From NCBI GenBank assembly GCA_032622095.1, contig CP136064.1:255109863-255173862 (forward strand): a stretch of DNA of 64,000 nucleotides, given 5' to 3'. The notes beneath the pieces are model-generated. The model searched no databases. It saw only the letters and a program-made list of their open reading frames with translations, and was not told the origin of the DNA. The position numbers and the translations under genes are program-made. The stretch comes from Siphonodentalium dalli. Its lineage: Eukaryota; Mollusca; Scaphopoda; Gadilida; Siphonodentaliidae. Position 1 is the stretch's first letter. Each line of letters starts with the position of its first letter. Positions 23,356-64,000 of the stretch are shown in pieces.

Positions 23356-23393
<38 letters not shown>

Positions 23394-25643: not shown

Positions 25644-25656
25644 AAATTCGCAGATA

Positions 25657-28576: not shown

Positions 28577-28828
28577 TTTAAAAAAAGTGAAAACAAAACG
28601 AACTACTATTCTAAAACTAATGAATTTCGACCGTTTTTGGACTCAAAATATGTCATTTTTAAGCCGCATCGTGATAAAACCGCATAATCACGGCCGGTCG
28701 GCAAGACAGACAGCCGACTTTGTTTTGAGTGATTACCCATTAGCCAATACAACACTTAATACAGTGCGCCAACATGAATGGATGTTGAAATATATCGCCA
28801 GTGGTCATTTGTGTAATTTTTGACATTG
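28577..28828 (+). other. Left arm of the C/B element
   Basis: 28582-28644 aligns without gaps to 36374-36436 (and to the copy near 49,270) with 48 of 63 identities counted by hand. The block begins AAAAAGTGAAAACAAAA and ends TTTTGGACTC. It lies about 185 bp before array C here and about 50 bp before array D there. Finding diverged versions of one sequence at the left edge of different arrays marks it as part of the repeated element and not as chance flank. No gene is present. Confidence 0.6.
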
Positions 28829-31800
28829 TAAAAATGTCCTGGTTTGGTCTTCTGTCTATGTTTAAGACGCTCACATAGAGCAAATCCAGCTGTTGCGCTT
28901 CGTCTAGGAGAAGATCGGGACACAAGCACTTTCTACACATGGACTTTATTAGTACATTTTTCGATGTGTTATAACTTGGTCATTTCTCACCCGATTTACA
29001 AAATTCTTTCACGAGTAGCATCAGTACATCGTATAGATACCCGACAGTAAAAATGGTTGGAATCGGTGACAAGAAAAAAATTGACAAATTTTGCACCCCT
29101 CCCCGGGTCAACAAATTGTTTTCGGACCTTGGTGAAAATTTCCCCGATTCGTGCCCTTTCCTTAGTTTACACGATTACGAGAACCGAATTCAGCTGCTTG
29201 ACTTCTTACAGGAGAAAATCTGCGCACAAACTTTTTCCAAAATTTTGGTTTAAGGGCCATAACTCTGGTAAGCAAGTTAGGGCACAAACCTAAATGCTCC
29301 ATTACCATGCATCTTGGCATGGTGCATATACCTACCAAATTTCAATGCTTTAACTTTTAAACTTTCTGAGATATAAGGGTTTCAAAATATATTAAGAATA
29401 ATAAATAATAATAATAGTGAAAAATAAAAAATTGAATAACAATATACTTCCATATTAAAATATGTAAGTATAATAAGGGAATCGCTCGGAATTGATTGGA
29501 ATGTCGATAGTATGGTTTATTGACATTTCTGTGTTCAGTTGGAAAGTTCTGGTGTGACCCCCACCCATGCCTCGAAATTTGATGACGCGGGTAGAAAAGT
29601 CGCCATATATCGGCCAATTTTCGAGATATCGAGCTAATATTTGCGCCATTGTGTTCGTATTTTATGCCCCTATAATATTTACTAGGGTTTTGGTGAGGTA
29701 TTGCGCCGATATTTTACTATGTAGGCCAATATGTATGTTTCTGGTTCATACTTTTTTGAATATCTCCGGACTCATTCGACATAATGCAGCAAATGAATAA
29801 TCGTTTAAAAGAGCTAAAAATTCCCCATCGAATGATACCAAACACGTCACGATTGGTTGAAGAAATATAAATTCATAGTGCTTTCCCTGTAAACTTGAAA
29901 AAAGGAAAGGGCCACCATTTCTACATTTGTCAACCGATTCACAAAATTCACGCACGATAATACTTAGTACATCCTACAGATACTTCACAACCATTTTGGT
30001 TAAAATCGGCGACAAAAAAAAAATTGACATATTTTGCCCCTCCCTTAGCCCAGGAAAAATTGAGCGGACCTTTTTAAAAATGTCCTGGTTTGGTCTTCTG
30101 TCTATGTTTAAGACGCTCACATAGAGCAAATCCAGCTGTTGCGCTTCGTCTAGGAGAAGATCGGGACACAAGCACTTTCTACACATGGACTTTATTAGTA
30201 CATTTTTCGATGTGTTATAACTTGGTCATTTCTCACCCGATTTACAAAATTCTTTCACGAGTAGCATCAGTACATCGTATAGATACCCGACAGTAAAAAT
30301 GGTTGGAATCGGTGACAAGAAAAAAATTGACAAATTTTGCACCCCTCCCCGGGTCAACAAATTGTTTTCGGACCTTGGTGAAAATTTCCCCGATTCGTGC
30401 CCTTTCCTTAGTTTACACGATTACGAGAACCGAATTCAGCTGCTTGACTTCTTACAGGAGAAAATCTGCGCACAAACTTTTTCCAAAATTTTGGTTTAAG
30501 GGCCATAACTCTGGTAAGCAAGTTAGGGCACAAACCTAAATGCTCCATTACCATGCATCTTGGCATGGTGCATATACCTACCAAATTTCAATGCTTTAAC
30601 TTTTAAACTTTCTGAGATATAAGGGTTTCAAAATATATTAAGAATAATAAATAATAATAATAGTGAAAAATAAAAAATTGAATAACAATATACTTCCATA
30701 TTAAAATATGTAAGTATAATAAGGGAATCGCTCGGAATTGATTGGAATGTCGATAGTATGGTTTATTGACATTTCTGTGTTCAGTTGGAAAGTTCTGGTG
30801 TGACCCCCACCCATGCCTCGAAATTTGATGACGCGGGTAGAAAAGTCGCCATATATCGGCCAATTTTCGAGATATCGAGCTAATATTTGCGCCATTGTGT
30901 TCGTATTTTATGCCCCTATAATATTTACTAGGGTTTTGGTGAGGTATTGCGCCGATATTTTACTATGTAGGCCAATATGTATGTTTCTGGTTCATACTTT
31001 TTTGAATATCTCCGGACTCATTCGACATAATGCAGCAAATGAATAATCGTTTAAAAGAGCTAAAAATTCCCCATCGAATGATACCAAACACGTCACGATT
31101 GGTTGAAGAAATATAAATTCATAGTGCTTTCCCTGTAAACTTGAAAAAAGGAAAGGGCCACCATTTCTACATTTGTCAACCGATTCACAAAATTCACGCA
31201 CGATAATACTTAGTACATCCTACAGATACTTCACAACCATTTTGGTTAAAATCGGCGACAAAAAAAAAATTGACATATTTTGCCCCTCCCTTAGCCCAGG
31301 AAAAATTGAGCGGACCTTTTTAAAAATGTCCTGGTTTGGTCTTCTGTCTATGTTTAAGACGCTCACATAGAGCAAATCCAGCTGTTGCGCTTCGTCTAGG
31401 AGAAGATCGGGACACAAGCACTTTCTACACATGGACTTTATTAGTACATTTTTCGATGTGTTATAACTTGGTCATTTCTCACCCGATTTACAAAATTCTT
31501 TCACGAGTAGCATCAGTACATCGTATAGATACCCGACAGTAAAAATGGTTGGAATCGGTGACAAGAAAAAAATTGACAAATTTTGCACCCCTCCCCGGGT
31601 CAACAAATTGTTTTCGGACCTTGGTGAAAATTTCCCCGATTCGTGCCCTTTCCTTAGTTTACACGATTACGAGAACCGAATTCAGCTGCTTGACTTCTTA
31701 CAGGAGAAAATCTGCGCACAAACTTTTTCCAAAATTTTGGTTTAAGGGCCATAACTCTGGTAAGCAAGTTAGGGCACAAACCTAAATGCTCCATTACCAT

Positions 31801-31963
31801 GCATCTTGGCATGGTGCATATACCTACCAAATTTCAATGCTTTAACTTTTAAACTTTCTGAGATATAAGGGTTTCAAAATATATTAAGAATAATAAATAA
31901 TAATAATAGTGAAAAATAAAAAATTGAATAACAATATACTTCCATATTAAAATATGTAAGTAT
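28829..31963. repeat. Tandem array C, 1246-bp monomer, 2.5 copies
   Basis: TAAAAATGTCC restarts at 28829, 30075 and 31321, period 1246. The third copy stops after the hairpin at about 31963. It is a sister of array A (similar order and words) but about 150 bp shorter. Its AAT tract is short and interrupted (29394-29415). Its hairpin (29443-29472) has the same arms as array A except for one substitution (GGAAGT to GTAAGT), which breaks a pair. Two sub-repeats carry CATTTCTCACCCGATT and CATTTGTCAACCGATT. No credible gene. Confidence 0.97.
29443..29472. other. Hairpin of array C with one mismatched pair
   Basis: Left arm TATACTTCCATATT, right arm AATATGTAAGTATA: 13 of 14 positions pair. The mismatch is repeated in all three copies (also near 30689 and 31935), so it was fixed before amplification. 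Confidence 0.8.
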
Positions 31964-31993
31964 AATAATAATAATAATAATGAAAAATAATCG
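31935..31993 (+). other. Array switch C to B at hairpin plus (AAT)6
   Basis: The C-type hairpin runs directly into (AAT)6 (31964-31981) and then GAAAAATAATCG, the start of a B-type monomer. In normal C monomers the hairpin is followed by TAATAAGGGAATCGC. The same switch, hairpin then AAT then GAAAAATAATCG, occurs at 43430 and 53695. Confidence 0.9.
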
Positions 31994-33708
31994 AAAAAGG
32001 GCCATAACTCTGTCAAAAGATATTGGACCAACATCTGGATACCATTATTTTTAGTAGACCTTAGATGCCTATATTCGCTAGAGATTTCGCGGTCCTCCTC
32101 CCATTAGTTTCTGAGTATTTTCAATTAAACAGAAAACGGCCGCAGTAGAAAAACAATATACTTCCTTGGTTACACCATGGAAGTATAATAATAGGGAAAA
32201 TCATGAGTGGAAAGAATCCCAGTTTAGGGACGTAAAATGTGAAGTATGGTGAGTATATGTTGTCAAGACATGTGTAGGTTTATCTCAAGTGTTTGGACGT
32301 GACCCCACCCCTGCCTCGAAATTGGGTGACGGGATTGGGAAAACATCAACCCTGGCACAAAATGCGAAGTTTGAGGGCCCGTAACTCCGTTAGTTTCCAA
32401 CGGATTTTAAAATTATTTTCAGTTTTGCGATCTGCCGCTAACATAGATTGTATAGTGTAAATTTCATCTGATTTGGAGACGGATAACACTTTGATTATTG
32501 GAAAGCATATGGGCCCAAATATAAAATTGGACGGCCAAAATCTCCGCCATTTCCCAACGTATTTACGATCTGTTTTCAGCTTCGAGATCGGCTGATGTTG
32601 CAGATGTTATATTCTAAGTTTCATCTGATTCGGAAAAGAATTAAAAATTGGTACCACTGACCACCCCTCCCCAGACCCACAATACTGAACCGACACTTGC
32701 AAAATTTGGCCCACCGCGTGCCGTCTTCAGTCCGTACGCATTTTCGTATCAGATGACATCCTATGTTCGATCTCTTCGGAGGAGATGTGTTATCAAGCAC
32801 ATGGGCCCAAAATTGCAAAGTTTGAGGGCCCGCGATTCTTTTAGTTTTCGATGGATTTTCGAAATTCTTCCAGCTTCTAGATCGGCTGATGTTGCAGATG
32901 TTATATTCCAAGTTTCATCTGATTCCGAGAATAATTAAAAATTGGTACCACGGACCACCCCTCCCCAGACCCACAATAATGAACCGACACTGGCAAAATT
33001 TGGCCAGTCGCGTGCCCTCTTCAGTCCGCACATATTGGCGTATCAGATGACATCCTATATTCGATATCTTCGGAGGAGATGTGGTCACAAGCACATGGGC
33101 CCAAAATTGCAAAGTTTGAGGGCCCGTAACTCTTGCATGTCTTCTCTGATTTCAAAAATCCTTTCTAGTATGGATTTGTTTTCGTTCAGGGAATCAACAT
33201 ACTTAAATAGAGGAATGTCAATCAAAACCTTTTTTTTTCGAAAATTTTGCCCCCACCCCAGCGTCAAAATATATGGCCGACCCTGTTCAATTTTCTTTTT
33301 CAGACTAAACTGACAACTGTCAACACGACTATGAAATCCAAATGCAGTTATCTCTAATGATACGAGAGTACAGCATAGTAAATCAAATAGAGGTTTGCCT
33401 ATTTATGGGCGGTAACTCCTCAGGAAAAGCGCGGACACAAGTTTTGATGCCCGTGGGCAGCAGGGCATATCGAGGTGTGCATACGGTCCAATTTTCGATG
33501 CTCTGCTGCTTATAATTTCCGAGATAATAAAATGACATTTTTTCAGATAAAGGGAGATAACTCCTCGGAGAAAACGCGGAAAATATTCTTTATGCGACGA
33601 TGGCATACAACTCTTTGACCCAAAGATACGTACCAATATTTAGTGTGCTACTCCTGGTACTTTTCGAGTAATAAGGGTTGCAAAAGTGTCCAGTATAATA
33701 ATAATAAT
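31982..33708. repeat. Single complete B-type monomer, 1727 bp
   Basis: It begins GAAAAATAATCG and ends with (AAT)4 (33697-33708). Its 1727 bp equals a 1745-bp B monomer less six AAT units, so it is one whole unit with no other length change. The two 294-bp sub-repeats are present (from about 32577). The final monomer of array B (23392-25118) is also 1727 bp with (AAT)4. Confidence 0.95.
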
Positions 33709-34050
33709 AACTAGAGGTCAGATTCCATGGAATCAGATATACTTCCATGGTATTCCATCCCATCCCATCCCGACCTGACCTTGGTCTTCAAAATGGTCAA
33801 TCGAAGGTCAAATCGGGTAAAACAGACGGATTTCCACGAAATTTGATACCTAGGGCTACTTTTGTCCGGGGAGTCTTTTGGGCGGATCAAGTCGTGACCC
33901 CGACCTGACATTGACCTTCGAAATGGTCAGTTCAAGGTCCAAATCGAGTAAAACGATTGGATTTCGACGAAATTTTATACCTAGGAAAACTTTTGTCCGG
34001 GGAGTGTTTTGGACAGGTCAAATCGTGACAATAGGTTACTTTTACAGTAG
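33709..34050 (+). other. Right arm 1 with two 130-bp tandem repeats
   Basis: AACTAG (33709-33714) is followed by the palindrome GATTCCATGGAATC, then GATATACTTCCATGG, a short CCATC tract (33752-33770) and two diverged direct repeats that start GACCTGAC at 33772 and 33902 (period 130). Each repeat contains GGTCAAATCG or GGTCCAAATCG, ATACCTAGG and TTTTGTCCGGGGAGT. Frames on either strand (33711-34069) cover these repeats only and look incidental. The same arm occurs at 46908. Confidence 0.8.
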
Positions 34051-34059
34051 AGCGGACAT

Positions 34060-34815
34060 ACCTATATAGTATATCGGTGAGCATATTCATGCATTTGCCT
34101 TGCTTCTTGCTAAGTCCGTTTGAATTTGCGTCATGAAGAGAGGGTTTGAATTTGAGTAATATATATCACCCGTCACAACGTTATACGCTACCAGGGTTAA
34201 ACCGTTCAATATAAGTTATTAAAAAGTGTACTAATCTTGCGTATATATACTACTTATCACATCCACTCATCGAAAAGTTTTTATCTCAATATATGATTTT
34301 CGGAGTAATTTTGCCCATTTGATCTTCGGTGGAATTTTCCAAATCTGAACCCACCCGACACAAACACTCCCTTGAGAAGGTTGCGTTTATATTAGAGAGG
34401 TCAAATTTTAGAGTCATACCTACAGTATACCGGCTTATGTACCACCGCATTAAACTCGCTCCTACATCGGCCCGTTTGGATTTGGGGCTAAAAATCGGCT
34501 AGTGATAGACTACAGAAGTATACATATTTATGATATATAGCGTTGTCACGAGTAAACCGTTCCATCTGAAAATTAGAAAATTGCGCTCTAGATGCGCGTG
34601 AACACTAGCTATCAGATATACTCGTCAAAAAAAATTACCTCGATGTTTGAATTTGAAGTATAGCGGTCAAGATTTGGGGGGGCGTGAATAGAATATCCAA
34701 ATGTACCTGCTACGGCATTACCTTGATCTTTAATTAGCCCTTTTGGATTTGGTGGGAAGAATAGGTGCATTTTCCTGTTCCCCGTATAGCGGAAAGGGGT
34801 ATATATATATAGTCA
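34060..34815. repeat. Three strongly diverged repeats
   Basis: Related words recur at about 34088, 34438 and 34702: GCATTTGCC...CCGTTTGAATTTG, GCATTAAAC...CCGTTTGGATTTGG and GCATTACC...CCTTTTGGATTTGG. GTCACAACG...AAACCGTTCAAT (about 34177) pairs with a GTTGTCACG...AAACCGTTCCAT block (about 34542). Spacing is unequal (350 and 264 bp), so this is an old, eroded duplication. No gene is seen. Confidence 0.5.
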
Positions 34816-34908
34816 CGCATTTCAATCAGTTTGGATATACAGTTTAAATATACACAGTTATATGCCTATATATTTAATACTAATATATTGTCTTATAAAT
34901 TAACAACG

Positions 34909-34997
34909 CAGTGCGTAGTCCAGTGGTGAGAGCGTCAAACCCTCAGTTTGTGTTTTATTGCGACGTGAGTTCGAATCCCGTCAAATTATCTTTTTTT
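34909..34997 (+). ncRNA. tRNA-like sequence 1 (SINE head or tRNA pseudogene)
   Basis: A box TAGTCCAGTGG (34916-34926) and B box AGTTCGAATCC (34968-34978) are 52 bp apart, and a T run (34991-34997) follows where Pol III would stop. GTCC/GAGC can form most of a D stem, and CAAA/TTTG an anticodon stem around CCCTCAG. The segment between anticodon arm and T arm is long, as in Ser/Leu class II tRNAs. The acceptor ends do not pair and position 33 is not T, so a working tRNA is unlikely. Confidence 0.45.
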
Positions 34998-35179
34998 ATT
35001 TTTTATTTTTAACATGTTTTGGTGTATTTTAATCATCAAATACGAATAATACCAAACTAAAGATAATGTAAAGATGCTTTTTATATTCGATTTCAATCAA
35101 TTTGAATATAAAGTTTAAATATACACAGTTATATGCCTATATACTTAATACTAATATATTTTCTTATAAATTAACAGCG

Positions 35180-35266
35180 CAGTGGGTAGCCCAGTGGTAA
35201 GAGCGTCAAACCTTCAGTTTGTGTTTTATTGCGACGTGAGTTCGAATCCCGTCAAATTATCTTTTT
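35180..35266 (+). ncRNA. tRNA-like sequence 2 (SINE head or tRNA pseudogene)
   Basis: A box TAGCCCAGTGG (35187-35197), B box AGTTCGAATCC (35239-35249) and a TTTTT run (35262-35266). The anticodon-arm loop reads CCTTCAG within CAAA/TTTG. The Pol III boxes are intact but the acceptor stem is not. Confidence 0.45.
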
Positions 35267-35574
35267 GTATTTTTTATTTTTAACATGTTTTGGTGTATTT
35301 TAATCATCAAATACGAATAATACCAAACTAAAGATAATGTAAAATGTGTTATTGAATCGGATATAAAACAATAAACACGTGGGTCGGTTTTCGCATATAT
35401 AACATGAAGCGCGCTTAATGAACGTTCGGTCCGAAGAATATAATGAGTGATTAACAACAACACACAAATAGTTTGAACGTAATCGAACAGAAAAGAGCGT
35501 TCTCTATAAGTAGATTCCTTTATGGTAGGAATAATGAGCGGTTGTTTCCCGTTTGCTTTTTTGACAAGACTTAA

Positions 35575-35808
35575 ATGACGGAGTACGAAACTATCAGTGG
35601 TGTTTTAGTTTGCGAAAGTATAAAAGGAGTCATTTCCAATTCGGCAGACATATACTCACGGAAAGAATTGAATGTCTATCAGCAGTATACTACGGTTTAT
35701 AACAATATACAAATTGATCTTACGAAACTGATGATGTTTGCATGTTTCTATGTGTTTATCGTTGTTATCGCAAACGGAATAATTGGCTATACGTCGTCAT
35801 TACGTTAG
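35575..35808 (+). CDS. Small hypothetical ORF, 77 codons, one possible membrane segment
   Basis: I do not recognise it. The frame starts with ATG after GACTTAA and ends at TAG. Residues about 50-71 are hydrophobic (MMFACFYVFIVVIANGIIGY) and could span a membrane; the N-terminal part is polar and tyrosine-rich. There is no signal peptide or known motif. In the second copy of this spacer (48597-48700) only the last third survives, with one silent change (AAC to AAT, Asn) among about 104 bases, and the start is gone. It could be a chance ORF or an exon of something larger. Splice sites and a poly(A) signal were not identified. Confidence 0.15.
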   Translation: MTEYETISGVLVCESIKGVISNSADIYSRKELNVYQQYTTVYNNIQIDLTKLMMFACFYVFIVVIANGIIGYTSSLR

Positions 35809-36246
35809 TAGAAATATACACCGTATAACGAAGGCTTGTTTGACCAAATTAATGTAATGTTTGTATTTTGTTTGGTTGTATATGATATGCAATGCGTTGA
35901 AGATGCGAAAGAAAATACAAAAGTGAAATGCACTCACGCAGATAGCTCATGACACACTATACACGATAAAATGATAATTTGCCACACACCATGGGCTACA
36001 CAATTTACGAATAGGTGGGTTTATATTAAAATCCAAGTTATTTGCTTTATAACGGCTCCGATATGAACTCATACCAATATACCACTCTGAAAATGATTGT
36101 TGGAATTCGATGGGCGTTCTATCGGTTCTCAGGTAGAGGATTGAGACTGGCCCGCGGTAAGACGGGTGTATTCGAATCGGAGGTAGGTTCCATCCCAGGG
36201 GGGATGGGGTAGCCGGAGGAAGGAGAGAGGGGAGTGACAAATTTTT
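35809..36246. other. Spacer without recognised genes
   Basis: Sequence between the small ORF and the left arm. A minus-strand frame of 97 codons (35947-36240) has a proline-rich start and no known domain. Its copy in spacer 2 (48839-49132) is also 97 codons and differs at several residues. I regard it as non-coding, with low certainty. Confidence 0.35.
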
Positions 36247-36483
36247 GGCGTATATATAGATAATATATATTATATATATAAGCGGAATTATTTTGAAGAG
36301 CTCTTTTCACTTGACTGAGAAAAAATAATGTTCTAAGTCCAAAAGATTTTGTTGAAATATTGGAGCCTTTTTCAAAAAGTGAAAACAAAATGAACGACTT
36401 TTCTGGGACAGGTCGATTTGGATCCGTTTTGGACTCTGGATTTCCCAAAAGTCATCTCCGTTTCGCGTGTAGCATAATATGAA
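36247..36483 (+). other. Left arm of the D/E element
   Basis: It starts with an AT palindrome (TATATATAGATAATATATAT onward, about 36249-36281) and contains the 63-bp block at 36374-36436 that matches the left arm of array C (48/63 identities). It then joins array D inside a sub-repeat, at CTTCGGAGGAGATG (36484). The junction with array C falls at the corresponding point of the C sub-repeat (CTTCGTCTAGGAGAAGAT, about 28895). Confidence 0.6.
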
Positions 36484-39400
36484 TCTTCGGAGGAGATGTG
36501 TTATCAAGCACATGGTCCCAAATTGCAAACTTTGAGGGCCCGTAACTCTTGCATTTCTTCTCGGATTTCAAAAATCCTTTCCGGTATGAGTTTGTTTTCG
36601 TTCGGGAAATACATAAACTTAAATATATGAATGTCAATCAAAATTTTATTTTTCAAAAAATTTACACCCCACCCCCAGTGTCAAAATATATGTCCGACCC
36701 TGTCAAATTTTCCTTCTCTGACTAAACTGACAACGGTCAACACGACTATGAAAACCACATGCAGTTATCTGGAATGATACAAGAGGACAACAGAGTACAA
36801 TCAAATAGAGGTTTGCCAACTATGGGAGGTAACTCCTCAGGGAAAGCGCGGACACAAGTTCTGATGCCCGTGGGCAGTAGGGCATATCGAGATGTGCATA
36901 CAGTCCAATTTTCGATGCTCTGCTCCTTATAATTTCCGAGATAATAAAATGAAATTTTTTCATATAAAGGGAGATAACTCCACGGGGTAAATGCGGACAA
37001 TATCCGTTATGAGCCAAAGGCATAGAACTCATTTACCTCAACATACTTACCAAACTTGAGTTGTCTAGTACTAATACATTCCGAGATTTGGGCGTTGAAA
37101 AATACTGTAGTATAATAATAATAATAATAATAATGAAAAATAATCGAAAAAGGGCCATAACTCTGTTAAAAGATATTGGACCAACATCCGGATACCATTA
37201 TTTTTAGTAGACCTTAGATGCCTTCATTCGCTAGAGATTTCGCGGTCCTCCTCCCATTAGTTTCTGAGTATTTCCAATTAAACAGAAAACGGCCGCAGTA
37301 GAAAAACAATATACTTCCTTGGTTACACCATGGAAGTATAATAATAGGGAAAATCATGAGTGGAAAGAATCGCAGTTTCGGGACGGAAAATATAAGTATT
37401 GTGAGTATATGTTGTCCTAACATGTGTAGGTTGATCTCAAGTGTTTGGACGTGACCCCACCCCTACCTCGAAATTGGGTGACGGGATTGGGAAAACATCA
37501 ACCCTGGCACAAAATGCGAAGTTTGAGGGCCCGTAACTCCGTTAGTTTCCAACGGATTTAAAAATTGTTTTCAGTTTTGCGATCTGCCGCTGACCTAGAT
37601 TGCACAACATAAATTTCATCTGATTCGGACCCGAATAACACTTTGGTTATTGGAAAGCATATGGGCCCAAATTCAAAATTGGATGGCCAAAATCTCCGCC
37701 ATTTTCAGACGGATTTACGATCTGTTTTCAGCTTCGTGATCAACGTATATGGTAGATGTTACATTCCAAGTTTCATCTGATTCGGAGAAGAATAAAAAAA
37801 ATGGTACCACGGACTACCCCTCCCCTGACCAACAATACTGAACCGACACTGGAGAAATTACACCCACCGCGTGCCCTCTTCAGTCCGTACGGATTATCGT
37901 AGCAGATTACATCCTAGGTTCGATATCTTCGGAAAAGATGTGTTATCAAGCACATGGGCCCAAAATTGCAAAGTTTGAGGGCCCGCAATTCTTTCAGTTT
38001 TCGATGGATTTTCGAAATTCTTTAAGTTTCTAGATCGGCTGAGGTTGCAGATGTTATATTCCCAGTTTCATCTGATTCGGAAAATAATTAAAAATTGGTA
38101 CCATGGACCACCCCTCCCCAGACCCACAATACTGAACCGACACTGGCAATATTTGGCCCACCGCGTGCCCTCTTCAGTCCATACGTATTTTCGTATCAGA
38201 TGACATCCTATGTTCGATATCTTCGGAGGAGATGTGTTATCAAGCAGATGGGTCCAAAATTGCAAAGTTTGAGGGCCCGCAATTATGTCAGTTTTCGATG
38301 GATTTTCGAAATTCTTTCAATTTCGAGATCGACTGATGTTGGAGATGTTATATTCTAAGTTTCATCTGATTCGGAGAAGAATTAAAAATTGGTACCACGG
38401 ACAACCCCTCCCCAGACCCACAATAATGAACAGACACTGGCAAAATTTGGCCCACCGCGTGCTCTCTTCCGTCCGCACACGTTGGCGTATCAGATGATAT
38501 TCTATGTTCGATACCTTCGGAGGAGATGTGTTATCAAGCACATGGTCCCAAATTGCAAACTTTGAGGGCCCGTAACTCTTGCATTTCTTCTCGGATTTCA
38601 AAAATCCTTTCCGGTATGAGTTTGTTTTCGTTCGGGAAATACATAAACTTAAATATATGAATGTCAATCAAAATTTTATTTTTCAAAAAATTTACACCCC
38701 ACCCCCAGTGTCAAAATATATGTCCGACCCTGTCAAATTTTCCTTCTCTGACTAAACTGACAACGGTCAACACGACTATGAAAACCACATGCAGTTATCT
38801 GGAATGATACAAGAGGACAACAGAGTACAATCAAATAGAGGTTTGCCAACTATGGGAGGTAACTCCTCAGGGAAAGCGCGGACACAAGTTCTGATGCCCG
38901 TGGGCAGTAGGGCATATCGAGATGTGCATACAGTCCAATTTTCGATGCTCTGCTCCTTATAATTTCCGAGATAATAAAATGAAATTTTTTCATATAAAGG
39001 GAGATAACTCCACGGGGTAAATGCGGACAATATCCGTTATGAGCCAAAGGCATAGAACTCATTTACCTCAACATACTTACCAAACTTGAGTTGTCTAGTA
39101 CTAATACATTCCGAGATTTGGGCGTTGAAAAATACTGTAGTATAATAATAATAATAATAATAATGAAAAATAATCGAAAAAGGGCCATAACTCTGTTAAA
39201 AGATATTGGACCAACATCCGGATACCATTATTTTTAGTAGACCTTAGATGCCTTCATTCGCTAGAGATTTCGCGGTCCTCCTCCCATTAGTTTCTGAGTA
39301 TTTCCAATTAAACAGAAAACGGCCGCAGTAGAAAAACAATATACTTCCTTGGTTACACCATGGAAGTATAATAATAGGGAAAATCATGAGTGGAAAGAAT

Positions 39401-48481: not shown

Positions 48482-48576
48482 TATTTTTTATTTTTAACAT
48501 GTTTTGGTGTATTTTAATCATCAAATACGAATAATACCAAACTAAAGATAATGTAAAGATGCTTTTTATATTCGAT

Positions 48577-52300: not shown

Positions 52301-53694
52301 ACTTGTACGGCCAAAATCTCCGCCATTTTCCAACGTATTTACGATCTGTCTTCAGCTTCGAGATCGGCTGATGTTGCAGATATTATATTCCAAGTTTCAT
52401 CTGATTCCGAGAAGAATTAAAATTCGGCACCACGGACCACCCCTCCCCAGACCCACAATAATGAACCGACACTGGCAAAATTTGGCCCACCGCGTGCCGT
52501 CTCCAGTCCGTACGCATTTTCGTATCAGATGACATCCTATGTTCGATATCTTCGGAGGAGATGTGTTATCAAGCACATGGGCCCAAAATTGCAAAGTTTG
52601 AGGGCCCGCGATTCTTTTAGTTTTCGATGGATTTTCGAAATTCTTCCAGTTTCTAGATCGGCTGATGTTGCAGATGTTATATTCCAAGTTTCATCTGATT
52701 CCGAGAAGAATTAAAAATTGGTACCACGGACCACCCCTCCCCAGACCCACAATAATGAACAGACACTGGCAAAATTTGGCCCACCGCGTGCTCTCTTCCG
52801 TCCGCACACGTTGGCGTATCAGATGATATCCTATGTTCGATATCTTCGGAGGAGATGTGAGGACAAGCACATGGGCCCAAATTGCAAACTTTGAGGGCCC
52901 GTAACTCTTGCATTTCTTCTCGGATTTCAAAAATCCTTTCCGGTATGAGTTTGTTTTCGTTCGGGAAATACATAAACTTAAATATATGAATGTCAATCAA
53001 AATTTTATTTTGCAAACAATTTGCCCCCCACCCCAGTGTCAAAATATATGTCTGACCCTGTCAAAATTTCCTTCTCTGACTAAACTGACAACGGTCAACA
53101 CGACTATGAAAACCACATGCAGTTATCTGGAATGATACAAGAGGACAACAGAGTACAATCAAATAGAGGTTTGCCAACTATGGGCGGTAACTCCTCAGGG
53201 AAAGCGCGGACACAAGTTCTGATGCCCGTGGGCAGTAGGGCATATCGAGATGTGTATACAGTCCAATTTTCGATGCTCTGCTCCTTATAATTTCCGAGAT
53301 AATAAAATGACATTTTTTCATATAAAGGGAGATAACTCTACGGGGTAAATGCGGACAATATCCGTTATGAGCCAAAGGCATAGAACTCATTTACCCCAAC
53401 ATACTTACCAAACTTGAGTTTTCTAGTACTAATACATTCCGAGATTTGGGCGTTGAAAAATACTGTAGTATAATAATAATAATAATAATGAAAAATAATC
53501 GAAAAAGGGCCATAACTCTGTTAAAAGATATTGGACCAACATCCGGATACCATTATTTTTAGTAGACCTTAGATGCCTTCATTCGCTAGAGATTTCGCGG
53601 TCCTCCTCCCATTAGTTTCTGAGTATTTCCAATTAAACAGAAAACGGCCGCAGTAGAAAAACAATATACTTCCTTGGTTACACCATGGAAGTAT
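49380..53694. repeat. Tandem array F, 1733-bp monomer, 2 full copies plus partial ends
   Basis: Monomers start at 50024 and 51757 (1733 bp, (AAT)6 at 50006-50023), preceded by a 644-bp partial and followed by a 205-bp segment (53490-53694) ending at the hairpin. The layout is the same as in array D. F monomers look like E with scattered substitutions (GATGCCCGTG, GAGGACAAGC, CAGTTATGTG). Two 294-bp sub-repeats are present. No supported gene. Confidence 0.97.
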
Positions 53695-53718
53695 AATAAT
53701 AATAATGAAAAATAATCG
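53660..53718 (+). other. Array switch F to E' at hairpin plus (AAT)4
   Basis: GGAAGTAT, (AAT)4 (53695-53706), then GAAAAATAATCG: the same switch, with the same AAT count, as at 43430. Confidence 0.9.
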
Positions 53719-56700
53719 AAAAAGGGCCATAACTCTGTTAAAAGATATTGGACCAACATCCGGATACCATTATTTTTAGTAGACCTTAGATGCCTTCATT
53801 CGCTAGAGATTTCGCGGTCCTCCTCCCATTAGTTTCTGAGTATTTCCAATTAAACAGAAAACGGCCGCAGTAGAAAAACAATATACTTCCTTGGTTACAC
53901 CATGGAAGTATAATAATAGGATCAATCATGAGTGGAAAGAATCGCAGTTTATGGACGGAAAATATGAAGTATGGTGATTATATGTTGTCCTAATATGTGT
54001 AGGTTGATCTCAAGTGTTTGGACGTGACCCCACCCCTGCCTCGAAATTGGGTGACGGGATTGGGAAAACATCAACCCCTGGCACAAACTGCTAAGTTTGA
54101 GGCCCCGTAACTTCGTCAGTTTCCAACGGATTTTAAAGTTGTTTCCAGTTTTGTGATTTGCGGCTGACATAGATTGCATAGTATAAATTTCATCTGATTT
54201 GGATACGGATAACACTTTGATTATTGGAAAGCATATGGGCCCAAATTCAAACTTGTACGGCCAAAATCTCCGCCATTTTCCAACGTATTTACGATCTGTG
54301 TTCAGCTTCGAGATCGGCTGATGTTGCAGATATTATATTCCAAGTTTCATCTGATTCCGAGAAGAATTAAAATTCGGCACCACGGACCACCCCTCCCCAG
54401 ACCCACAATAATGAACCGACACTGGCAACATTTGGCCCACCGCGTGCCGTCTCCAGTCCGTACGCATTTTCGTATCAGATGACATCCTATGTTCGATATC
54501 TTCGGAGGAGATGTGTTATCAAGCACATGGGCCCAAAATTGCAAAGTTTGAGGGCCCGCGATTCTTTTAGTTTTCGATGGATTTTCGAAATTCGTCCAGT
54601 TTCTAGATCGGCTGATGTTGCAGATGTTATATTCCAAGTTTCATCTGATTCCGAGAAGAATTAAAAATTGGTACCACGGACCACCCCTCCCCAGACCCAC
54701 AATAATGAACCGACACTGGCAAAATTTGGCCCACCGCGTGCCCTCTTCCGTCCGCACACGTTGGCGTATCAGCTGACATCCAAACTTCGACATCTTCGGA
54801 GGAGATGTGTTGTCAAGCACATGGGCCCAAATTGCAAACTTTGAGGGCCCGTAACTCTTGCATTTCTTCTCGGATTTCAAAAATCCTTTCCGGTATGAGT
54901 TTGTTTTCGTTCGGGAAATACATAAACTTAAATATATGAATGTCAATCAAAATTTTATTTTGCAAACAATTTGCCCCCCACCCCAGTGTCAAAATATATG
55001 TCCGACCCTGTCAAAATTTCCTTCTCTGACTAAACTGACAACGGTCAACACGACTATGAAAACCACATGCAGTTATCTGGAATGATACAAGAGGACAACA
55101 GAGTACAATCAAATAGAGGTTTGCCAACTATGGGCGGTAACTCCTCAGGGAAAGCGCGGACACAAGTTCTGAAGCCCGTGGGCAGTAGGGCATATCGAGA
55201 TGTGTATACAGTCCAATTTTCGATGCTCTGCTCCTTATAATTTCCGAGATAATAAAATGACATTTTTTCATATAAAGGGAGATAACTCCACGGGGTAAAT
55301 GCGGACAATATCCGTTATGAGCCAAAGGCATAGAACTCATTTACCCCAACATACTTACCAAACTTGAGTTTTCTAGTACTAATACATTCCGAGATTTGGG
55401 CGTTGAAAAATACTGTAGTATAATAATAATAATAATAATAATAATGAAAAATAATCGAAAAAGGGCCATAACTCTGTTAAAAGATATTGGACCAACATCC
55501 GGATACCATTATTTTTAGTAGACCTTAGATGCCTTCATTCGCTAGAGATTTCGCGGTCCTCCTCCCATTAGTTTCTGAGTATTTCCAATTAAACAGAAAA
55601 CGGCCGCAGTAGAAAAACAATATACTTCCTTGGTTACACCATGGAAGTATAATAATAGGATCAATCATGAGTGGAAAGAATCGCAGTTTATGGACGGAAA
55701 ATATGAAGTATGGTGATTATATGTTGTCCTAATATGTGTAGGTTGATCTCAAGTGTTTGGACGTGACCCCACCCCTGCCTCGAAATTGGGTGACGGGATT
55801 GGGAAAACATCAACCCCTGGCACAAACTGCTAAGTTTGAGGCCCCGTAACTTCGTCAGTTTCCAACGGATTTTAAAGTTGTTTCCAGTTTTGTGATTTGC
55901 GGCTGACATAGATTGCATAGTATAAATTTCATCTGATTTGGATACGGATAACACTTTGATTATTGGAAAGCATATGGGCCCAAATTCAAACTTGTACGGC
56001 CAAAATCTCCGCCATTTTCCAACGTATTTACGATCTGTGTTCAGCTTCGAGATCGGCTGATGTTGCAGATATTATATTCCAAGTTTCATCTGATTCCGAG
56101 AAGAATTAAAATTCGGCACCACGGACCACTCCTCCCCAGACCCACAATAATGAACCGACACTGGCAACATTTGGCCCACCGCGTGCCGTCTCCAGTCCGT
56201 ACGCATTTTCGTATCAGATGACATCCTATGTTCGATATCTTCGGAGGAGATGTGTTATCAAGCACATGGGCCCAAAATTGCAAAGTTTGAGGGCCCGCGA
56301 TTCTTTTAGTTTTCGATGGATTTTCGAAATTCGTCCAGTTTCTAGATCGGCTGATGTTGCAGATGTTATATTCCAAGTTTCATCTGATTCCGAGAAGAAT
56401 TAAAAATTGGTACCACGGACCACCCCTCCCCAGACCCACAATAATGAACCGACACTGGCAAAATTTGGCCCACCGCGTGCCCTCTTCCGTCCGCACACGT
56501 TGGCGTATCAGCTGACATCCAAACTTCGACATCTTCGGAGGAGATGTGTTGTCAAGCACATGGGCCCAAATTGCAAACTTTGAGGGCCCGTAACTCTTGC
56601 ATTTCTTCTCGGATTTCAAAAATCCTTTCCGGTATGAGTTTGTTTTCGTTCGGGAAATACATAAACTTAAATATATGAATGTCAATCAAAATTTTATTTT

Positions 56701-59700
56701 GCAAACAATTTGCCCCCCACCCCAGTGTCAAAATATATGTCCGACCCTGTCGAAATTTCCTTCTCTGACTAAACTGACAACGGTCAACACGACTATGAAA
56801 ACCACATGCAGTTATCTGGAATGATACAAGAGGACAACAGAGTACAATCAAATAGAGGTTTGCCAACTATGGGCGGTAACTCCTCAGGGAAAGCGCGGAC
56901 ACAAGTTCTGAAGCCCGTGGGCAGTAGGGCATATCGAGATGTGTATACAGTCCAATTTTCGATGCTCTGCTCCTTATAATTTCCGAGATAATAAAATGAC
57001 ATTTTTTCATATAAAGGGAGATAACTCCACGGGGTAAATGCGGACAATATCCGTTATGAGCCAAAGGCATAGAACTCATTTACCCCAACATACTTACCAA
57101 ACTTGAGTTTTCTAGTACTAATACATTCCGAGATTTGGGCGTTGAAAAATACTGTAGTATAATAATAATAATAATAATAATAATGAAAAATAATCGAAAA
57201 AGGGCCATAACTCTGTTAAAAGATATTGGACCAACATCCGGATACCATTATTTTTAGTAGACCTTAGATGCCTTCATTCGCTAGAGATTTCGCGGTCCTC
57301 CTCCCATTAGTTTCTGAGTATTTCCAATTAAACAGAAAACGGCCGCAGTAGAAAAACAATATACTTCCTTGGTTACACCATGGAAGTATAATAATAGGAT
57401 CAATCATGAGTGGAAAGAATCGCAGTTTATGGACGGAAAATATGAAGTATGGTGATTATATGTTGTCCTAATATGTGTAGGTTGATCTCAAGTGTTTGGA
57501 CGTGACCCCACCCCTGCCTCGAAATTGGGTGACGGGATTGGGAAAACATCAACCCCTGGCACAAACTGCTAAGTTTGAGGCCCCGTAACTTCGTCAGTTT
57601 CCAACGGATTTTAAAGTTGTTTCCAGTTTTGTGATTTGCGGCTGACATAGATTGCATAGTATAAATTTCATCTGATTTGGATACGGATAACACTTTGATT
57701 ATTGGAAAGCATATGGGCCCAAATTCAAACTTGTACGGCCAAAATCTCCGCCATTTTCCAACGTATTTACGATCTGTGTTCAGCTTCGAGATCGGCTGAT
57801 GTTGCAGATATTATATTCCAAGTTTCATCTGATTCCGAGAAGAATTAAAATTCGGCACCACGGACCACCCCTCCCCAGACCCACAATAATGAACCGACAC
57901 TGGCAACATTTGGCCCACCGCGTGCCGTCTCCAGTCCGTACGCATTTTCGTATCAGATGACATCCTATGTTCGATATCTTCGGAGGAGATGTGTTATCAA
58001 GCACATGGGCCCAAAATTGCAAAGTTTGAGGGCCCGCGATTCTTTTAGTTTTCGATGGATTTTCGAAATTCGTCCAGTTTCTAGATCGGCTGATGTTGCA
58101 GATGTTATATTCCAAGTTTCATCTGATTCCGAGAAGAATTAAAAATTGGTACCACGGACCACCCCTCCCCAGACCCACAATAATGAACCGACACTGGCAA
58201 AATTTGGCCCACCGCGTGCCCTCTTCCGTCCGCACACGTTGGCGTATCAGCTGACATCCAAACTTCGACATCTTCGGAGGAGATGTGTTGTCAAGCACAT
58301 GGGCCCAAATTGCAAACTTTGAGGGCCCGTAACTCTTGCATTTCTTCTCGGATTTCAAAAATCCTTTCCGGTATGAGTTTGTTTTCGTTCGGGAAATACA
58401 TAAACTTAAATATATGAATGTCAATCAAAATTTTATTTTGCAAACAATTTGCCCCCCACCCCAGTGTCAAAATATATGTCCGACCCTGTCAAAATTTCCT
58501 TCTCTGACTAAACTGACAACGGTCAACACGACTATGAAAACCACATGCAGTTATCTGGAATGATACAAGAGGACAACAGAGTACAATCAAATAGAGGTTT
58601 GCCAACTATGGGCGGTAACTCCTCAGGGAAAGCGCGGACACAAGTTCTGAAGCCCGTGGGCAGTAGGGCATATCGAGATGTGTATACAGTCCAATTTTCG
58701 ATGCTCTGCTCCTTATAATTTCCGAGATAATAAAATGACATTTTTTCATATAAAGGGAGATAACTCCACGGGGTAAATGCGGACAATATCCGTTATGAGC
58801 CAAAGGCATAGAACTCATTTACCCCAACATACTTACCAAACTTGAGTTTTCTAGTACTAATACATTCCGAGATTTGGGCGTTGAAAAATACTGTAGTATA
58901 ATAATAATAATAATAATAATAATGAAAAATAATCGAAAAAGGGCCATAACTCTGTTAAAAGATATTGGACCAACATCCGGATACCATTATTTTTAGTAGA
59001 CCTTAGATGCCTTCATTCGCTAGAGATTTCGCGGTCCTCCTCCCATTAGTTTCTGAGTATTTCCAATTAAACAGAAAACGGCCGCAGTAGAAAAACAATA
59101 TACTTCCTTGGTTACACCATGGAAGTATAATAATAGGATCAATCATGAGTGGAAAGAATCGCAGTTTATGGACGGAAAATATGAAGTATGGTGATTATAT
59201 GTTGTCCTAATATGTGTAGGTTGATCTCAAGTGTTTGGACGTGACCCCACCCCTGCCTCGAAATTGGGTGACGGGATTGGGAAAACATCAACCCCTGGCA
59301 CAAACTGCTAAGTTTGAGGCCCCGTAACTTCGTCAGTTTCCAACGGATTTTAAAGTTGTTTCCAGTTTTGTGATTTGCGGCTGACATAGATTGCATAGTA
59401 TAAATTTCATCTGATTTGGATACGGATAACACTTTGATTATTGGAAAGCATATGGGCCCAAATTCAAACTTGTACGGCCAAAATCTCCGCCATTTTCCAA
59501 CGTATTTACGATCTGTGTTCAGCTTCGAGATCGGCTGATGTTGCAGATATTATATTCCAAGTTTCATCTGATTCCGAGAAGAATTAAAATTCGGCACCAC
59601 GGACCACCCCTCCCCAGACCCACAATAATGAACCGACACTGGCAACATTTGGCCCACCGCGTGCCGTCTCCAGTCCGTACGCATTTTCGTATCAGATGAC

Positions 59701-62700
59701 ATCCTATGTTCGATATCTTCGGAGGAGATGTGTTATCAAGCACATGGGCCCAAAATTGCAAAGTTTGAGGGCCCGCGATTCTTTTAGTTTTCGATGGATT
59801 TTCGAAATTCGTCCAGTTTCTAGATCGGCTGATGTTGCAGATGTTATATTCCAAGTTTCATCTGATTCCGAGAAGAATTAAAAATTGGTACCACGGACCA
59901 CCCCTCCCCAGACCCACAATAATGAACCGACACTGGCAAAATTTGGCCCACCGCGTGCCCTCTTCCGTCCGCACACGTTGGCGTATCAGCTGACATCCAA
60001 ACTTCGACATCTTCGGAGGAGATGTGTTGTCAAGCACATGGGCCCAAATTGCAAACTTTGAGGGCCCGTAACTCTTGCATTTCTTCTCGGATTTCAAAAA
60101 TCCTTTCCGGTATGAGTTTGTTTTCGTTCGGGAAATACATAAACTTAAATATATGAATGTCAATCAAAATTTTATTTTGCAAACAATTTGCCCCCCACCC
60201 CAGTGTCAAAATATATGTCCGACCCTGTCAAAATTTCCTTCTCTGACTAAACTGACAACGGTCAACACGACTATGAAAACCACATGCAGTTATCTGGAAT
60301 GATACAAGAGGACAACAGAGTACAATCAAATAGAGGTTTGCCAACTATGGGCGGTAACTCCTCAGGGAAAGCGCGGACACAAGTTCTGAAGCCCGTGGGC
60401 AGTAGGGCATATCGAGATGTGTATACAGTCCAATTTTCGATGCTCTGCTCCTTATAATTTCCGAGATAATAAAATGACATTTTTTCATATAAAGGGAGAT
60501 AACTCCACGGGGTAAATGCGGACAATATCCGTTATGAGCCAAAGGCATAGAACTCATTTACCCCAACATACTTACCAAACTTGAGTTTTCTAGTACTAAT
60601 ACATTCCGAGATTTGGGCGTTGAAAAATACTGTAGTATAATAATAATAATAATAATAATAATGAAAAATAATCGAAAAAGGGCCATAACTCTGTTAAAAG
60701 ATATTGGACCAACATCCGGATACCATTATTTTTAGTAGACCTTAGATGCCTTCATTCGCTAGAGATTTCGCGGTCCTCCTCCCATTAGTTTCTGAGTATT
60801 TCCAATTAAACAGAAAACGGCCGCAGTAGAAAAACAATATACTTCCTTGGTTACACCATGGAAGTATAATAATAGGATCAATCATGAGTGGAAAGAATCG
60901 CAGTTTATGGACGGAAAATATGAAGTATGGTGATTATATGTTGTCCTAATATGTGTAGGTTGATCTCAAGTGTTTGGACGTGACCCCACCCCTGCCTCGA
61001 AATTGGGTGACGGGATTGGGAAAACATCAACCCCTGGCACAAACTGCTAAGTTTGAGGCCCCGTAACTTCGTCAGTTTCCAACGGATTTTAAAGTTGTTT
61101 CCAGTTTTGTGATTTGCGGCTGACATAGATTGCATAGTATAAATTTCATCTGATTTGGATACGGATAACACTTTGATTATTGGAAAGCATATGGGCCCAA
61201 ATTCAAACTTGTACGGCCAAAATCTCCGCCATTTTCCAACGTATTTACGATCTGTGTTCAGCTTCGAGATCGGCTGATGTTGCAGATATTATATTCCAAG
61301 TTTCATCTGATTCCGAGAAGAATTAAAATTCGGCACCACGGACCACCCCTCCCCAGACCCACAATAATGAACCGACACTGGCAACATTTGGCCCACCGCG
61401 TGCCGTCTCCAGTCCGTACGCATTTTCGTATCAGATGACATCCTATGTTCGATATCTTCGGAGGAGATGTGTTATCAAGCACATGGGCCCAAAATTGCAA
61501 AGTTTGAGGGCCCGCGATTCTTTTAGTTTTCGATGGATTTTCGAAATTCGTCCAGTTTCTAGATCGGCTGATGTTGCAGATGTTATATTCCAAGTTTCAT
61601 CTGATTCCGAGAAGAATTAAAAATTGGTACCACGGACCACCCCTCCCCAGACCCACAATAATGAACCGACACTGGCAAAATTTGGCCCACCGCGTGCCCT
61701 CTTCCGTCCGCACACGTTGGCGTATCAGCTGACATCCAAACTTCGACATCTTCGGAGGAGATGTGTTGTCAAGCACATGGGCCCAAATTGCAAACTTTGA
61801 GGGCCCGTAACTCTTGCATTTCTTCTCGGATTTCAAAAATCCTTTCCGGTATGAGTTTGTTTTCGTTCGGGAAATACATAAACTTAAATATATGAATGTC
61901 AATCAAAATTTTATTTTGCAAACAATTTGCCCCCCACCCCAGTGTCAAAATATATGTCCGACCCTGTCAAAATTTCCTTCTCTGACTAAACTGACAACGG
62001 TCAACACGACTATGAAAACCACATGCAGTTATCTGGAATGATACAAGAGGACAACAGAGTACAATCAAATAGAGGTTTGCCAACTATGGGCGGTAACTCC
62101 TCAGGGAAAGCGCGGACACAAGTTCTGAAGCCCGTGGGCAGTAGGGCATATCGAGATGTGTATACAGTCCAATTTTCGATGCTCTGCTCCTTATAATTTC
62201 CGAGATAATAAAATGACATTTTTTCATATAAAGGGAGATAACTCCACGGGGTAAATGCGGACAATATCCGTTATGAGCCAAAGGCATAGAACTCATTTAC
62301 CCCAACATACTTACCAAACTTGAGTTTTCTAGTACTAATACATTCCGAGATTTGGGCGTTGAAAAATACTGTAGTATAATAATAATAATAATAATAATAA
62401 TGAAAAATAATCGAAAAAGGGCCATAACTCTGTTAAAAGATATTGGACCAACATCCGGATACCATTATTTTTAGTAGACCTTAGATGCCTTCATTCGCTA
62501 GAGATTTCGCGGTCCTCCTCCCATTAGTTTCTGAGTATTTCCAATTAAACAGAAAACGGCCGCAGTAGAAAAACAATATACTTCCTTGGTTACACCATGG
62601 AAGTATAATAATAGGATCAATCATGAGTGGAAAGAATCGCAGTTTATGGACGGAAAATATGAAGTATGGTGATTATATGTTGTCCTAATATGTGTAGGTT

Positions 62701-64000
62701 GATCTCAAGTGTTTGGACGTGACCCCACCCCTGCCTCGAAATTGGGTGACGGGATTGGGAAAACATCAACCCCTGGCACAAACTGCTAAGTTTGAGGCCC
62801 CGTAACTTCGTCAGTTTCCAACGGATTTTAAAGTTGTTTCCAGTTTTGTGATTTGCGGCTGACATAGATTGCATAGTATAAATTTCATCTGATTTGGATA
62901 CGGATAACACTTTGATTATTGGAAAGCATATGGGCCCAAATTCAAACTTGTACGGCCAAAATCTCCGCCATTTTCCAACGTATTTACGATCTGTGTTCAG
63001 CTTCGAGATCGGCTGATGTTGCAGATATTATATTCCAAGTTTCATCTGATTCCGAGAAGAATTAAAATTCGGCACCACGGACCACCCCTCCCCAGACCCA
63101 CAATAATGAACCGACACTGGCAACATTTGGCCCACCGCGTGCCGTCTCCAGTCCGTACGCATTTTCGTATCAGATGACATCCTATGTTCGATATCTTCGG
63201 AGGAGATGTGTTATCAAGCACATGGGCCCAAAATTGCAAAGTTTGAGGGCCCGCGATTCTTTTAGTTTTCGATGGATTTTCGAAATTCGTCCAGTTTCTA
63301 GATCGGCTGATGTTGCAGATGTTATATTCCAAGTTTCATCTGATTCCGAGAAGAATTAAAAATTGGTACCACGGACCACCCCTCCCCAGACCCACAATAA
63401 TGAACCGACACTGGCAAAATTTGGCCCACCGCGTGCCCTCTTCCGTCCGCACACGTTGGCGTATCAGCTGACATCCAAACTTCGACATCTTCGGAGGAGA
63501 TGTGTTGTCAAGCACATGGGCCCAAATTGCAAACTTTGAGGGCCCGTAACTCTTGCATTTCTTCTCGGATTTCAAAAATCCTTTCCGGTATGAGTTTGTT
63601 TTCGTTCGGGAAATACATAAACTTAAATATATGAATGTCAATCAAAATTTTATTTTGCAAACAATTTGCCCCCCACCCCAGTGTCAAAATATATGTCCGA
63701 CCCTGTCAAAATTTCCTTCTCTGACTAAACTGACAACGGTCAACACGACTATGAAAACCACATGCAGTTATCTGGAATGATACAAGAGGACAACAGAGTA
63801 CAATCAAATAGAGGTTTGCCAACTATGGGCGGTAACTCCTCAGGGAAAGCGCGGACACAAGTTCTGAAGCCCGTGGGCAGTAGGGCATATCGAGATGTGT
63901 ATACAGTCCAATTTTCGATGCTCTGCTCCTTATAATTTCCGAGATAATAAAATGACATTTTTTCATATAAAGGGAGATAACTCCACGGGGTAAATGCGGA
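53707..64000. repeat. Tandem array E', 1739-bp monomer, 5 full copies plus a partial
   Basis: Monomers start at 53707, 55446, 57185, 58924, 60663 and 62402; the last is cut by the window end. All full copies are 1739 bp with (AAT)8. Substitutions noted are C to T at 56130 and A to G at 56752, both private to the monomer 55446-57184. The sequence is the same type as array E (43442-46907). It should end beyond the window with a right arm if the pattern holds. No supported gene. Confidence 0.97.

Follow-up and report, generated by a model that had tools for sequence, protein, structure and literature searches.

What kind of unit can build a long block of DNA almost entirely out of kilobase tandem arrays? 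The question is raised by a 64-kb window (the whole stretch analysed, C4:255109863-255173862) in the genome assembly of the scaphopod Siphonodentalium dalli, which comprises 2.227 Gb in 9 contigs. Nearly all of the window consists of long tandem arrays and three spacers (U, R1, and R3), and its order from left to right is A, a 100-N gap, B, U, C, one B monomer, R1, D, E, R3, F, and E'. A first-pass annotation, made from the letters alone, described a composite of left arm, array X, hairpin-AAT switch, array Y, (AAT)4-AACTAG, and right arm, and suggested a non-autonomous rolling-circle element of the Helentron/HINE type. We find that the region very probably consists of Helentron/HINE-like rolling-circle transposons, non-autonomous and nested in one another, on the minus strand, whose movement itself we infer from sequence. 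An element of this type does account for the hairpin, the microsatellite, the arms, and the head-to-tail copies. What changes is where the element begins and ends.

The described order is indeed present. It is complete for C then B and for D then E, and open at the window edge for F then E'. All three composites have a single orientation, the Y arrays are made of whole monomers, and the X arrays end at the hairpin. Hairpin-AAT switches follow C (with AAT to 31981), D (at 43401), and F (at 53666); (AAT)4-AACTAG closes the B monomer at 33709 and AACTAG closes E at 46908. The two arrays of a composite were said to be different satellites, which is true of C then B only, because D/E and F/E' each represent one monomer family. 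BLAST gives two monomer families, A/C and B/D/E/F. D and E are 91-98% identical, after rotation F is 99% identical to E', and monomers are nearly identical within each array. As for the supposedly fixed arms, the left arm is shared (28537-28644 and 36327-36436 align with a score of 45; 20 shuffles give 14-21), but what was called the right arm forms the opening part of the next element. The composite was therefore cut in the wrong place, and the range given for it omits what lies further left: spacer U and arrays B and A. One element consists of the CTAG of the former right arm, a spacer, the former left arm, and array X up to the hairpin, on the minus strand; array Y is normally target DNA. 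Three complete elements are present. Both sides of element 1 are B (100% identical), and those of element 3 are E and E' (100% identical). The ends of element 1 are placed at CTAG and at the hairpin end, with AA added on the model of other copies whose empty sites are compared below.

The whole-genome search proposed by the annotation yields many loci with a fixed order and varying copy number (at most ~40 matches are listed for each DNA search; first-look candidates number 24 to 3,944). A 1-kb probe over the left arm and C has at least 40 matches at 96-100% on all 9 contigs (1,994 candidates). At 30/30 loci fetched for the left arm, the window being one, spacer U leads into an array of C or A type (internally rearranged at a few loci), so that no arm without an array is found among them. 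U is 98-99% identical in 28 of these loci, 96% in one, and 100% in the window. At 30/30 loci fetched for the start of R1, again including the window, an E/B-type array gives way at its end to a spacer of R type (the R1-end query contained array sequence, which biases '30/30 in AATAATAA'). The first part of R is 92-100% identical at all 30, with a shorter R variant in 6. Because U and R are conserved at 30/30 loci each, the stretch from right arm to left arm is one block, and the idea that the spacer is neutral DNA between arms is ruled out.

An isolated copy on contig C5 (minus strand) displays the unit by itself: non-array DNA, (AAT)n-AA, the CTAG start of U, a C array, the hairpin, AAT, and non-array DNA. 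The C array extends down to C5:53.808 Mb and is absent from 53.804 Mb on (250-base probes every 4 kb). At the far junction the last C monomer stops at the hairpin, followed by AATAATAATAT and then non-array DNA. This implies that the element ends at the hairpin and does not require array Y. The 5' flank of this copy does not appear in the flank-repeat listing, and it is termed non-array rather than unique.

The flanks of several U copies are repeats with other genomic copies, allowing filled and empty sites to be compared; the annotation had named empty sites in other haplotypes as support, and they are found at other copies of the flanking repeats. For a copy on contig C3, CTACAAA/TTAACGG (the slash marks the insertion point) is uninterrupted at 3/3 loci read. 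Where the site is filled, CTAG comes directly after CTACAAA, and TTAACGG resumes after GGAAGTATAA 7.6 kb further on. For a copy on contig C9, AAAGATAA/TAATACT is empty at 2/2 loci read; in the filled site CTAG comes after AAAGATAA, and ~33 kb on GGAAGTATAA stands before TAATACT (the interior was read near the ends only). Both copies are A/T insertions of TTATACTTCC...CTAG (element strand) without target duplication. An alternative reading of the same sites is a 2-bp TT duplication with the 5' end at ATACTTCC. A third copy (L113), compared at one end, has an empty site at 2/2 loci read. For a fourth (L107), the only locus read (L128, C1:251976210-251976490) holds another element's end, not an empty site: a P3-type end in CTAA form lies beside (AAT)n in the repeat copy corresponding to the one where the U of L107 inserted. 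Among the matches listed, no other copy of the flanks of L111, L118, and L119 is found, and L069 (contig C4) is excluded from the flank comparison since a 100-N gap lies at its 5' flank.

On the minus strand an element has the anatomy 5' TT (TTATACTTCC), a hairpin formed by a subterminal inverted repeat (subTIR) and an adjoining inverted repeat (IR), (ATT)n, a tandem array of 1.2-2.0-kb monomers, one spacer of 2.5-3.7 kb, 3' subTIR, palindrome, and CTAG. The hairpin is ATACTTCC...GGAAGTAT, with minimum energies of -8.8 (C) and -15.4 (D) under RNA parameters. If the element starts with TT, as in the empty-site comparison, the 5' subTIR lies 2 nt from the terminus; (ATT)n begins about 55-205 bp from the 5' end. 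The subTIRs of the two ends pair by family: R with D/F over 13 bp exactly, U with A over 12 exactly, and U with C over 12 with one mismatch. Mismatched-family pairs reach at most 10 exact, and when the R1 end is shuffled a match of 11 with D appears in 0/2000 cases. The 3'-end pattern ATGGAAGTAT-N(12-38)-CTAGTT occurs at 3,823 genomic places on both strands, compared with 8 for a reversed control. Palindrome stems differ between families at the same place, and stems of 7-9 pairs form in 11 of the 14 variants typed. The junction AA/CTAG (CTAG/TT on the element strand) is found in 20/20 fetched U ends, which were hand-chosen from 40 listed of 330 candidates.

Since array monomers hold a 5' hairpin and (AAT)n, an array amounts to a series of 5' ends that share a single 3' end. 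When the monomer count is calculated as the distance from left arm to terminal hairpin, minus 626, divided by 1246, the number of extra C monomers is 1.005, 2.00, 3.06, 5.01, 8.02, 23.0, and 43.0 for 7 of 10 C-type ends (the arrays between counted ends were read in parts only). The other three give no integer count: two (C3:32.64 and C1:0.03 Mb) have no left-arm match listed, and the third, on contig C6, has an internal deletion. Beyond the 10 hairpin ends lies B/E-type (AAT)n in six, C-type (AAT)n in three, and non-array DNA in one (the C5 copy); the pattern used for these ends demanded AATAATAAT, and the distribution cannot measure target preference.

Two arrays in fixed order within one inserted unit, as the annotation had it, do occur in one copy, where they are bounded by array Y's own hairpin and not by AACTAG. 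In this contig C3 copy (C3:40.257-40.265 Mb, read except 40263001-40264689), the one with 3/3 empty loci described above, U is followed by C, the hairpin, (AAT)4, and B, and the copy ends at the B hairpin, followed by host DNA. It includes one C-to-C hairpin junction, and B is 100% identical over the 154 bases read. It is a two-array composite (C, then B) that moved as a unit, as expected if a U-C element had entered the microsatellite of a B monomer and the pair had then been mobilised as a stretch bounded by the 5' end of B and the 3' end of U. Two other U copies have foreign pieces inside C at the array start and are possible nested or composite copies, with a short B piece in L021 (C8:172.11 Mb) and an R-like piece in L029 (C4:257.56 Mb).

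In the window no open reading frame (ORF) of 150 or more amino acids (aa) starting with ATG, GTG, or TTG is present. Nine of the longer stop-to-stop frames have no Pfam match at 1e-3; a single hit, at E 0.082, scores well under its cut-off. Recognisable coding sequence in the spacers and monomers is rejected on the strength of the ORF listing and the Pfam search. Elsewhere in the genome, Helitron_like_N has at least 151 matches (150 of 457 candidates were scored). They include a low-scoring class (~90-111 bits) whose frames are mostly 1.8-2.9k aa, and many other matches with frames of ~1.2-1.7k aa. Six low-scoring frames (C8:4875782, C1:169483708, C8:164614114, C1:214418025, C2:5304353, and C4:255311255) lie near U/R copies, all on the element strand of the nearest listed ones. 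Another, C8:107314650, is ~300 kb from the nearest copy and on the opposite strand, and others have no listed neighbour. The Helentron-type frame at C4:255311255 is located 137 kb right of the window in the same orientation as the elements. Its end (in frame by arithmetic) has a C-terminal PF03372 endonuclease match, as in Helentrons.

Table 1. Arrays, spacers, elements, and terminal structures of the window (position 1 is its first base)
Feature	Coordinates	Strand	Description
Array A	1..6976		1399-bp monomers
B array	7077..25120	minus	1745/1748-bp monomers, ~10; left-side target of element 1
Element 1	25121..31965	minus	spacer U and array C with 2 extra monomers; complete; CTAG at 25121, hairpin end at 31963; inserted in (AAT)n of B array
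Spacer U	25125..28828	minus	includes left arm 28537-28828; no coding found
3' palindrome, element 1	25132..25151	minus	AAACTTCCTATTGGAAGTTT on plus strand; 11 nt from 3' end
3' subTIR, element 1	25153..25164	minus	ATATGGAAGTAT on element strand; 12 bp
Array C	28829..31963	minus	1246-bp monomers, each with 5' hairpin and (AAT)n
5' terminal hairpin (subTIR + IR), element 1	31936..31963	minus	
Single B monomer (former array Y)	31966..33710	minus	1745 bp; 100% identical to B array; right-side target of element 1
Element 2	33711..43431	minus	spacer R1 and array D; complete; CTAG at 33711; B on one side, E on the other
Spacer R1	33715..36486	minus	includes left arm 36327-36486; no coding found
3' palindrome, element 2	33721..33734	minus	GATTCCATGGAATC; 10 nt from 3' end
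3' subTIR, element 2	33739..33751	minus	ACCATGGAAGTAT on element strand; 13 bp, exact to D/F 5' end
Array D	36487..43429	minus	2030-bp monomers; 2.8 internal 294-bp repeats
5' terminal hairpin, element 2	43401..43429	minus	
E array (former array Y)	43432..46909	minus	two 1739-bp monomers, between elements 2 and 3
Element 3	46910..53696	minus	spacer R3 and array F; complete; CTAG at 46910; inserted in (AAT)n of E array
Spacer R3	46914..49375	minus	includes left arm 49220-49375; ~97% to R1 in two aligned blocks
3' palindrome, element 3	46920..46933	minus	
3' subTIR, element 3	46938..46950	minus	
Array F	49376..53694	minus	1733-bp monomers
5' terminal hairpin, element 3	53666..53694	minus	
E' array	53697..64000	minus	1739-bp monomers; runs off window; right side of element 3 target

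The spacers have repeats of their own. R1 (34819-35343) and R3 (48032-48576) contain a 271-bp tandem repeat of ~2 copies, which includes a tRNA-like stretch with an A-box and a TTCGAATCCC-like B-box. These repeats have no match by ARAGORN or by Rfam at gathering scores, and neither tRNA genes nor Rfam families are found across the 64-kb window. The R spacers start with a 130-131-bp tandem repeat of 2 copies with 83% matches (33769-34029 and 46973-47232). Spacer U has a fold-back palindrome (25657-25833) and, by eye, an inverted-repeat element (~27015-27535). Because U copies are near-identical over the fetched part, insertions within that part seem older than the spread of U. A fourth AACTAG at 48581, inside R3 and far from any identified end, is probably due to chance. 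The 100-N stretch between arrays A and B (6977-7076) is a scaffold gap.

How the elements came to be stacked on one strand can be judged from their targets and clustering. The starts of the 20 fetched U copies are found in B-, F-, or C-type arrays in 13 and in other DNA in 7 (contigs C1, C3, C5, C7, and C9). They fall into 12 groups of near-identical flank, the largest with 9 members, and hence represent fewer than 20 independent insertion events. In the window (AAT)4 is present at 169 start positions on the plus strand and (ATT)4 at none, which would account for one-way insertion, provided that (ATT)n is what the elements target. Among 100 listed of the 3,823 places with a 3' end (all within the first 50 Mb of contig C1 and classified by eye), neighbouring ends share a strand in 33/36 pairs within 20 kb and in 16/46 beyond 100 kb. 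Four clusters (6, 9, 18, and 3 ends) each lie on a single strand, and one of them mixes five end families (R, U, P1, P2, and P3). A further family, P4, makes up 26 of the 100 ends and has none of its 26 in the four clusters; it may lack (ATT)n arrays. Duplication of already nested loci, with no strand-specific targeting of (ATT)n, could produce same-strand clusters by itself. This has the near-identical flanks of 9/20 U starts in its favour, together with the fact that the comparison is made within one haplotype. The mixture of five families in one single-strand cluster, the single strand of all four clusters, the absence of P4 from them, and the position of elements 1 and 3, which lie in the same microsatellite but in different arrays, speak against it, and we regard it as unlikely, though worth serious thought. 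A preference for (ATT)n would then outweigh duplication as the main cause of nesting.

In class, the elements have features of two kinds. Canonical Helitrons have 5' TC, 3' CTRR with a hairpin just upstream, and A/T insertion. The elements here lack 5' TC (having TTATACTTCC or ATACTTCC instead) and do have 3' CTAG with a hairpin and the A/T insertion point. They also have these features of HINEs: subTIRs of ~11-15 bp, a 5' IR, a 3' palindrome 8-35 bp from the end, a T-rich target, and no coding. According to excerpts of PMC4067079, HINE/DINE-1 elements and Helentrons have a subTIR 2-4 nt from the 5' end and a palindrome 8-35 bp from the 3' end; autonomous Helentrons carry a C-terminal endonuclease and non-autonomous members have no coding. 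The termini and the lack of coding are the same here, and the 3' CTAG and A/T insertion point are the differences from what is given there. The AT target of Helitrons is also stated in an excerpt of PMC5148889. It is conceivable, if improbable, that the elements derive from canonical Helitrons (HLE1) and not from Helentrons, an origin with which the 3' CTAG and its hairpin, the A/T insertion without duplication, and the many Helitron_like_N frames of ~1.2-1.7k aa would agree. The 5' TTATACTTCC in place of TC, subTIRs at both ends, and the 5' IR with a microsatellite are HINE features in excerpts of PMC4067079 and PMC7492417, and the structure is best called HINE-like. It is a new variant in that its monomers carry 5' ends and microsatellite targets.

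An ordinary macrosatellite, grown by unequal exchange and segmental duplication without any transposition, is a very unlikely explanation. Monomers are near-identical within arrays, some U copies recur at a spacing of ~14.3 kb, and 9/20 U flanks are near-identical, all of which such processes would produce; unequal exchange or segmental duplication may still account for growth within arrays. As the sole process they are contradicted by the precise ends, the empty sites, the 3,823 conserved 3' ends on both strands, and the differing non-array flanks at 7/20 U starts and at the further C5 copy. Ordinary satellites have no fixed non-repeated ends, and here there are fixed ends and empty sites. 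Least credible of all is that the annotation's composite, from left arm to AACTAG and right arm, is itself the tandemly amplified mobile unit: its order recurs and the C3 copy carries C then B as one inserted unit, but the isolated C5 copy has neither Y nor right arm after X, CTAG begins the element at 20/20 fetched U ends (7 in non-array DNA), the subTIRs pair the spacer with X, and the C3 composite closes at B's hairpin and not at AACTAG.

Some observations do not fit easily with nested HINE-like elements. Element 2 lies between two different arrays, B and E, an arrangement not expected from simple insertion into a uniform array. Of the 14 palindromes typed, three form no more than 3-5 pairs, and in the folded R1 end the subTIR pairs with a palindrome arm, so that the palindrome does not fold alone. 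An internal deletion precedes the C-type end on contig C6, so that its count is not a whole number, and the 3/10 C-type ends that run into C-type (AAT)n could reflect local recombination and not self-insertion. Segmental duplication may be part of the cause of same-strand clusters, as the ~14.3-kb recurrence and the 9/20 flanks suggest. The A/T target and 3' CTAG, being canonical Helitron features, make the class within the superfamily mixed. Finally, no ATGGAAGTAT occurs in the 4.3 kb downstream of the C4 Helentron frame, the sole frame examined, and a partner with matching ends was not found.

With nested HINE-like elements, the structure of the block could arise as follows. A Rep/helicase supplied in trans would move the element. 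Any one of the several 5' hairpin copies could be nicked, and replication would end at the first 3' palindrome and CTAG. As the 5' nick is variable and the 3' stop fixed, one 3' end would be kept while the number of monomers at the 5' side varies. Insertion takes place between A and T (A/TT) without target duplication. Because (ATT)n lies on one array strand only, new copies would land in an array in the same orientation, nesting elements head-to-tail and building large satellite-like blocks across many chromosomes. Where replication starts at an outer 5' end and reads through, it could pick up two array types as a composite. These elements may be seen, tentatively and with somewhat less than even confidence, as self-seeding satellite builders, in which each monomer carries a working 5' terminus and an oriented copy of a favoured (ATT)n target, leading to one-way stacking, length change by whole monomers as the starting 5' end varies between transpositions, and mobile composites.

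Parts of this scheme are known from other systems, which are compared here on the basis of excerpts from the papers named. Cg_HINE elements of the Pacific oyster (PMC7492417) share the 5' subTIR, complementary IR, microsatellite, central tandem repeats, and 3' subTIR with palindrome, as well as the T-rich target without duplication and the fixed array orientation. Two of them bear two consecutive arrays, comparable to the two-array element here. Their consensus monomers are 138-181 bp and their arrays mostly have at most 5 copies (the longest 29), whereas here every monomer measures 1.2-2.0 kb and has a 5' terminus and a microsatellite to itself, and up to 43 extra copies are present. Kilobase monomers linked to Helitron ends are also known in this bivalve (CgiSat04, 2077 bp; CgiSat07, 2091 bp; CgiSat14, 1144 bp; PMC8268682), and therefore monomer size alone is not new; the excerpts of PMC8268682 make no mention of repeated 5' termini or insertion into the element's own microsatellite. 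Truncated or tandemized Helitron parts are found inside other elements at oyster loci (PMC12628747). In Fusarium, the Helitron2-like FoHelis have several 5' termini and one 3' terminus, for which self-insertion, an outermost 5' start, and the first 3' end were proposed (PMC5148889). Their duplicated 5' pieces are typically <200 bp, in contrast to the whole satellite monomers here. Helitron arrays in plant centromeres (Xiong et al. 2016, as given in PMC12628747) have many 5' ends and a single 3' end, and rolling-circle amplification is put forward as their cause. Those are truncated Helitrons, and the excerpts mention no (ATT)n self-targeting.

No description of HINE arrays with 5'-terminus monomers and same-strand insertions in their own (ATT)n was found in the literature searched (subscription papers lay mostly outside the search). 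Lepidopteran helitron-like elements are reportedly the subject of a 2010 paper by Coates et al., which by its title has them disrupting (GAAA)n microsatellites.

What is unusual in S. dalli is the repetition of 5' ends and the fact that insertions go, on the same strand, into microsatellites of the element's own kind. Together, repeated 5' ends and own landing sites offer a concrete and testable route from transposon to kilobase satellite. This route would explain HINEs with two arrays, one-way clusters, and copy-number change by whole monomers. With many near-identical copies and empty sites in the genome, the choice of start site and of target can be counted.

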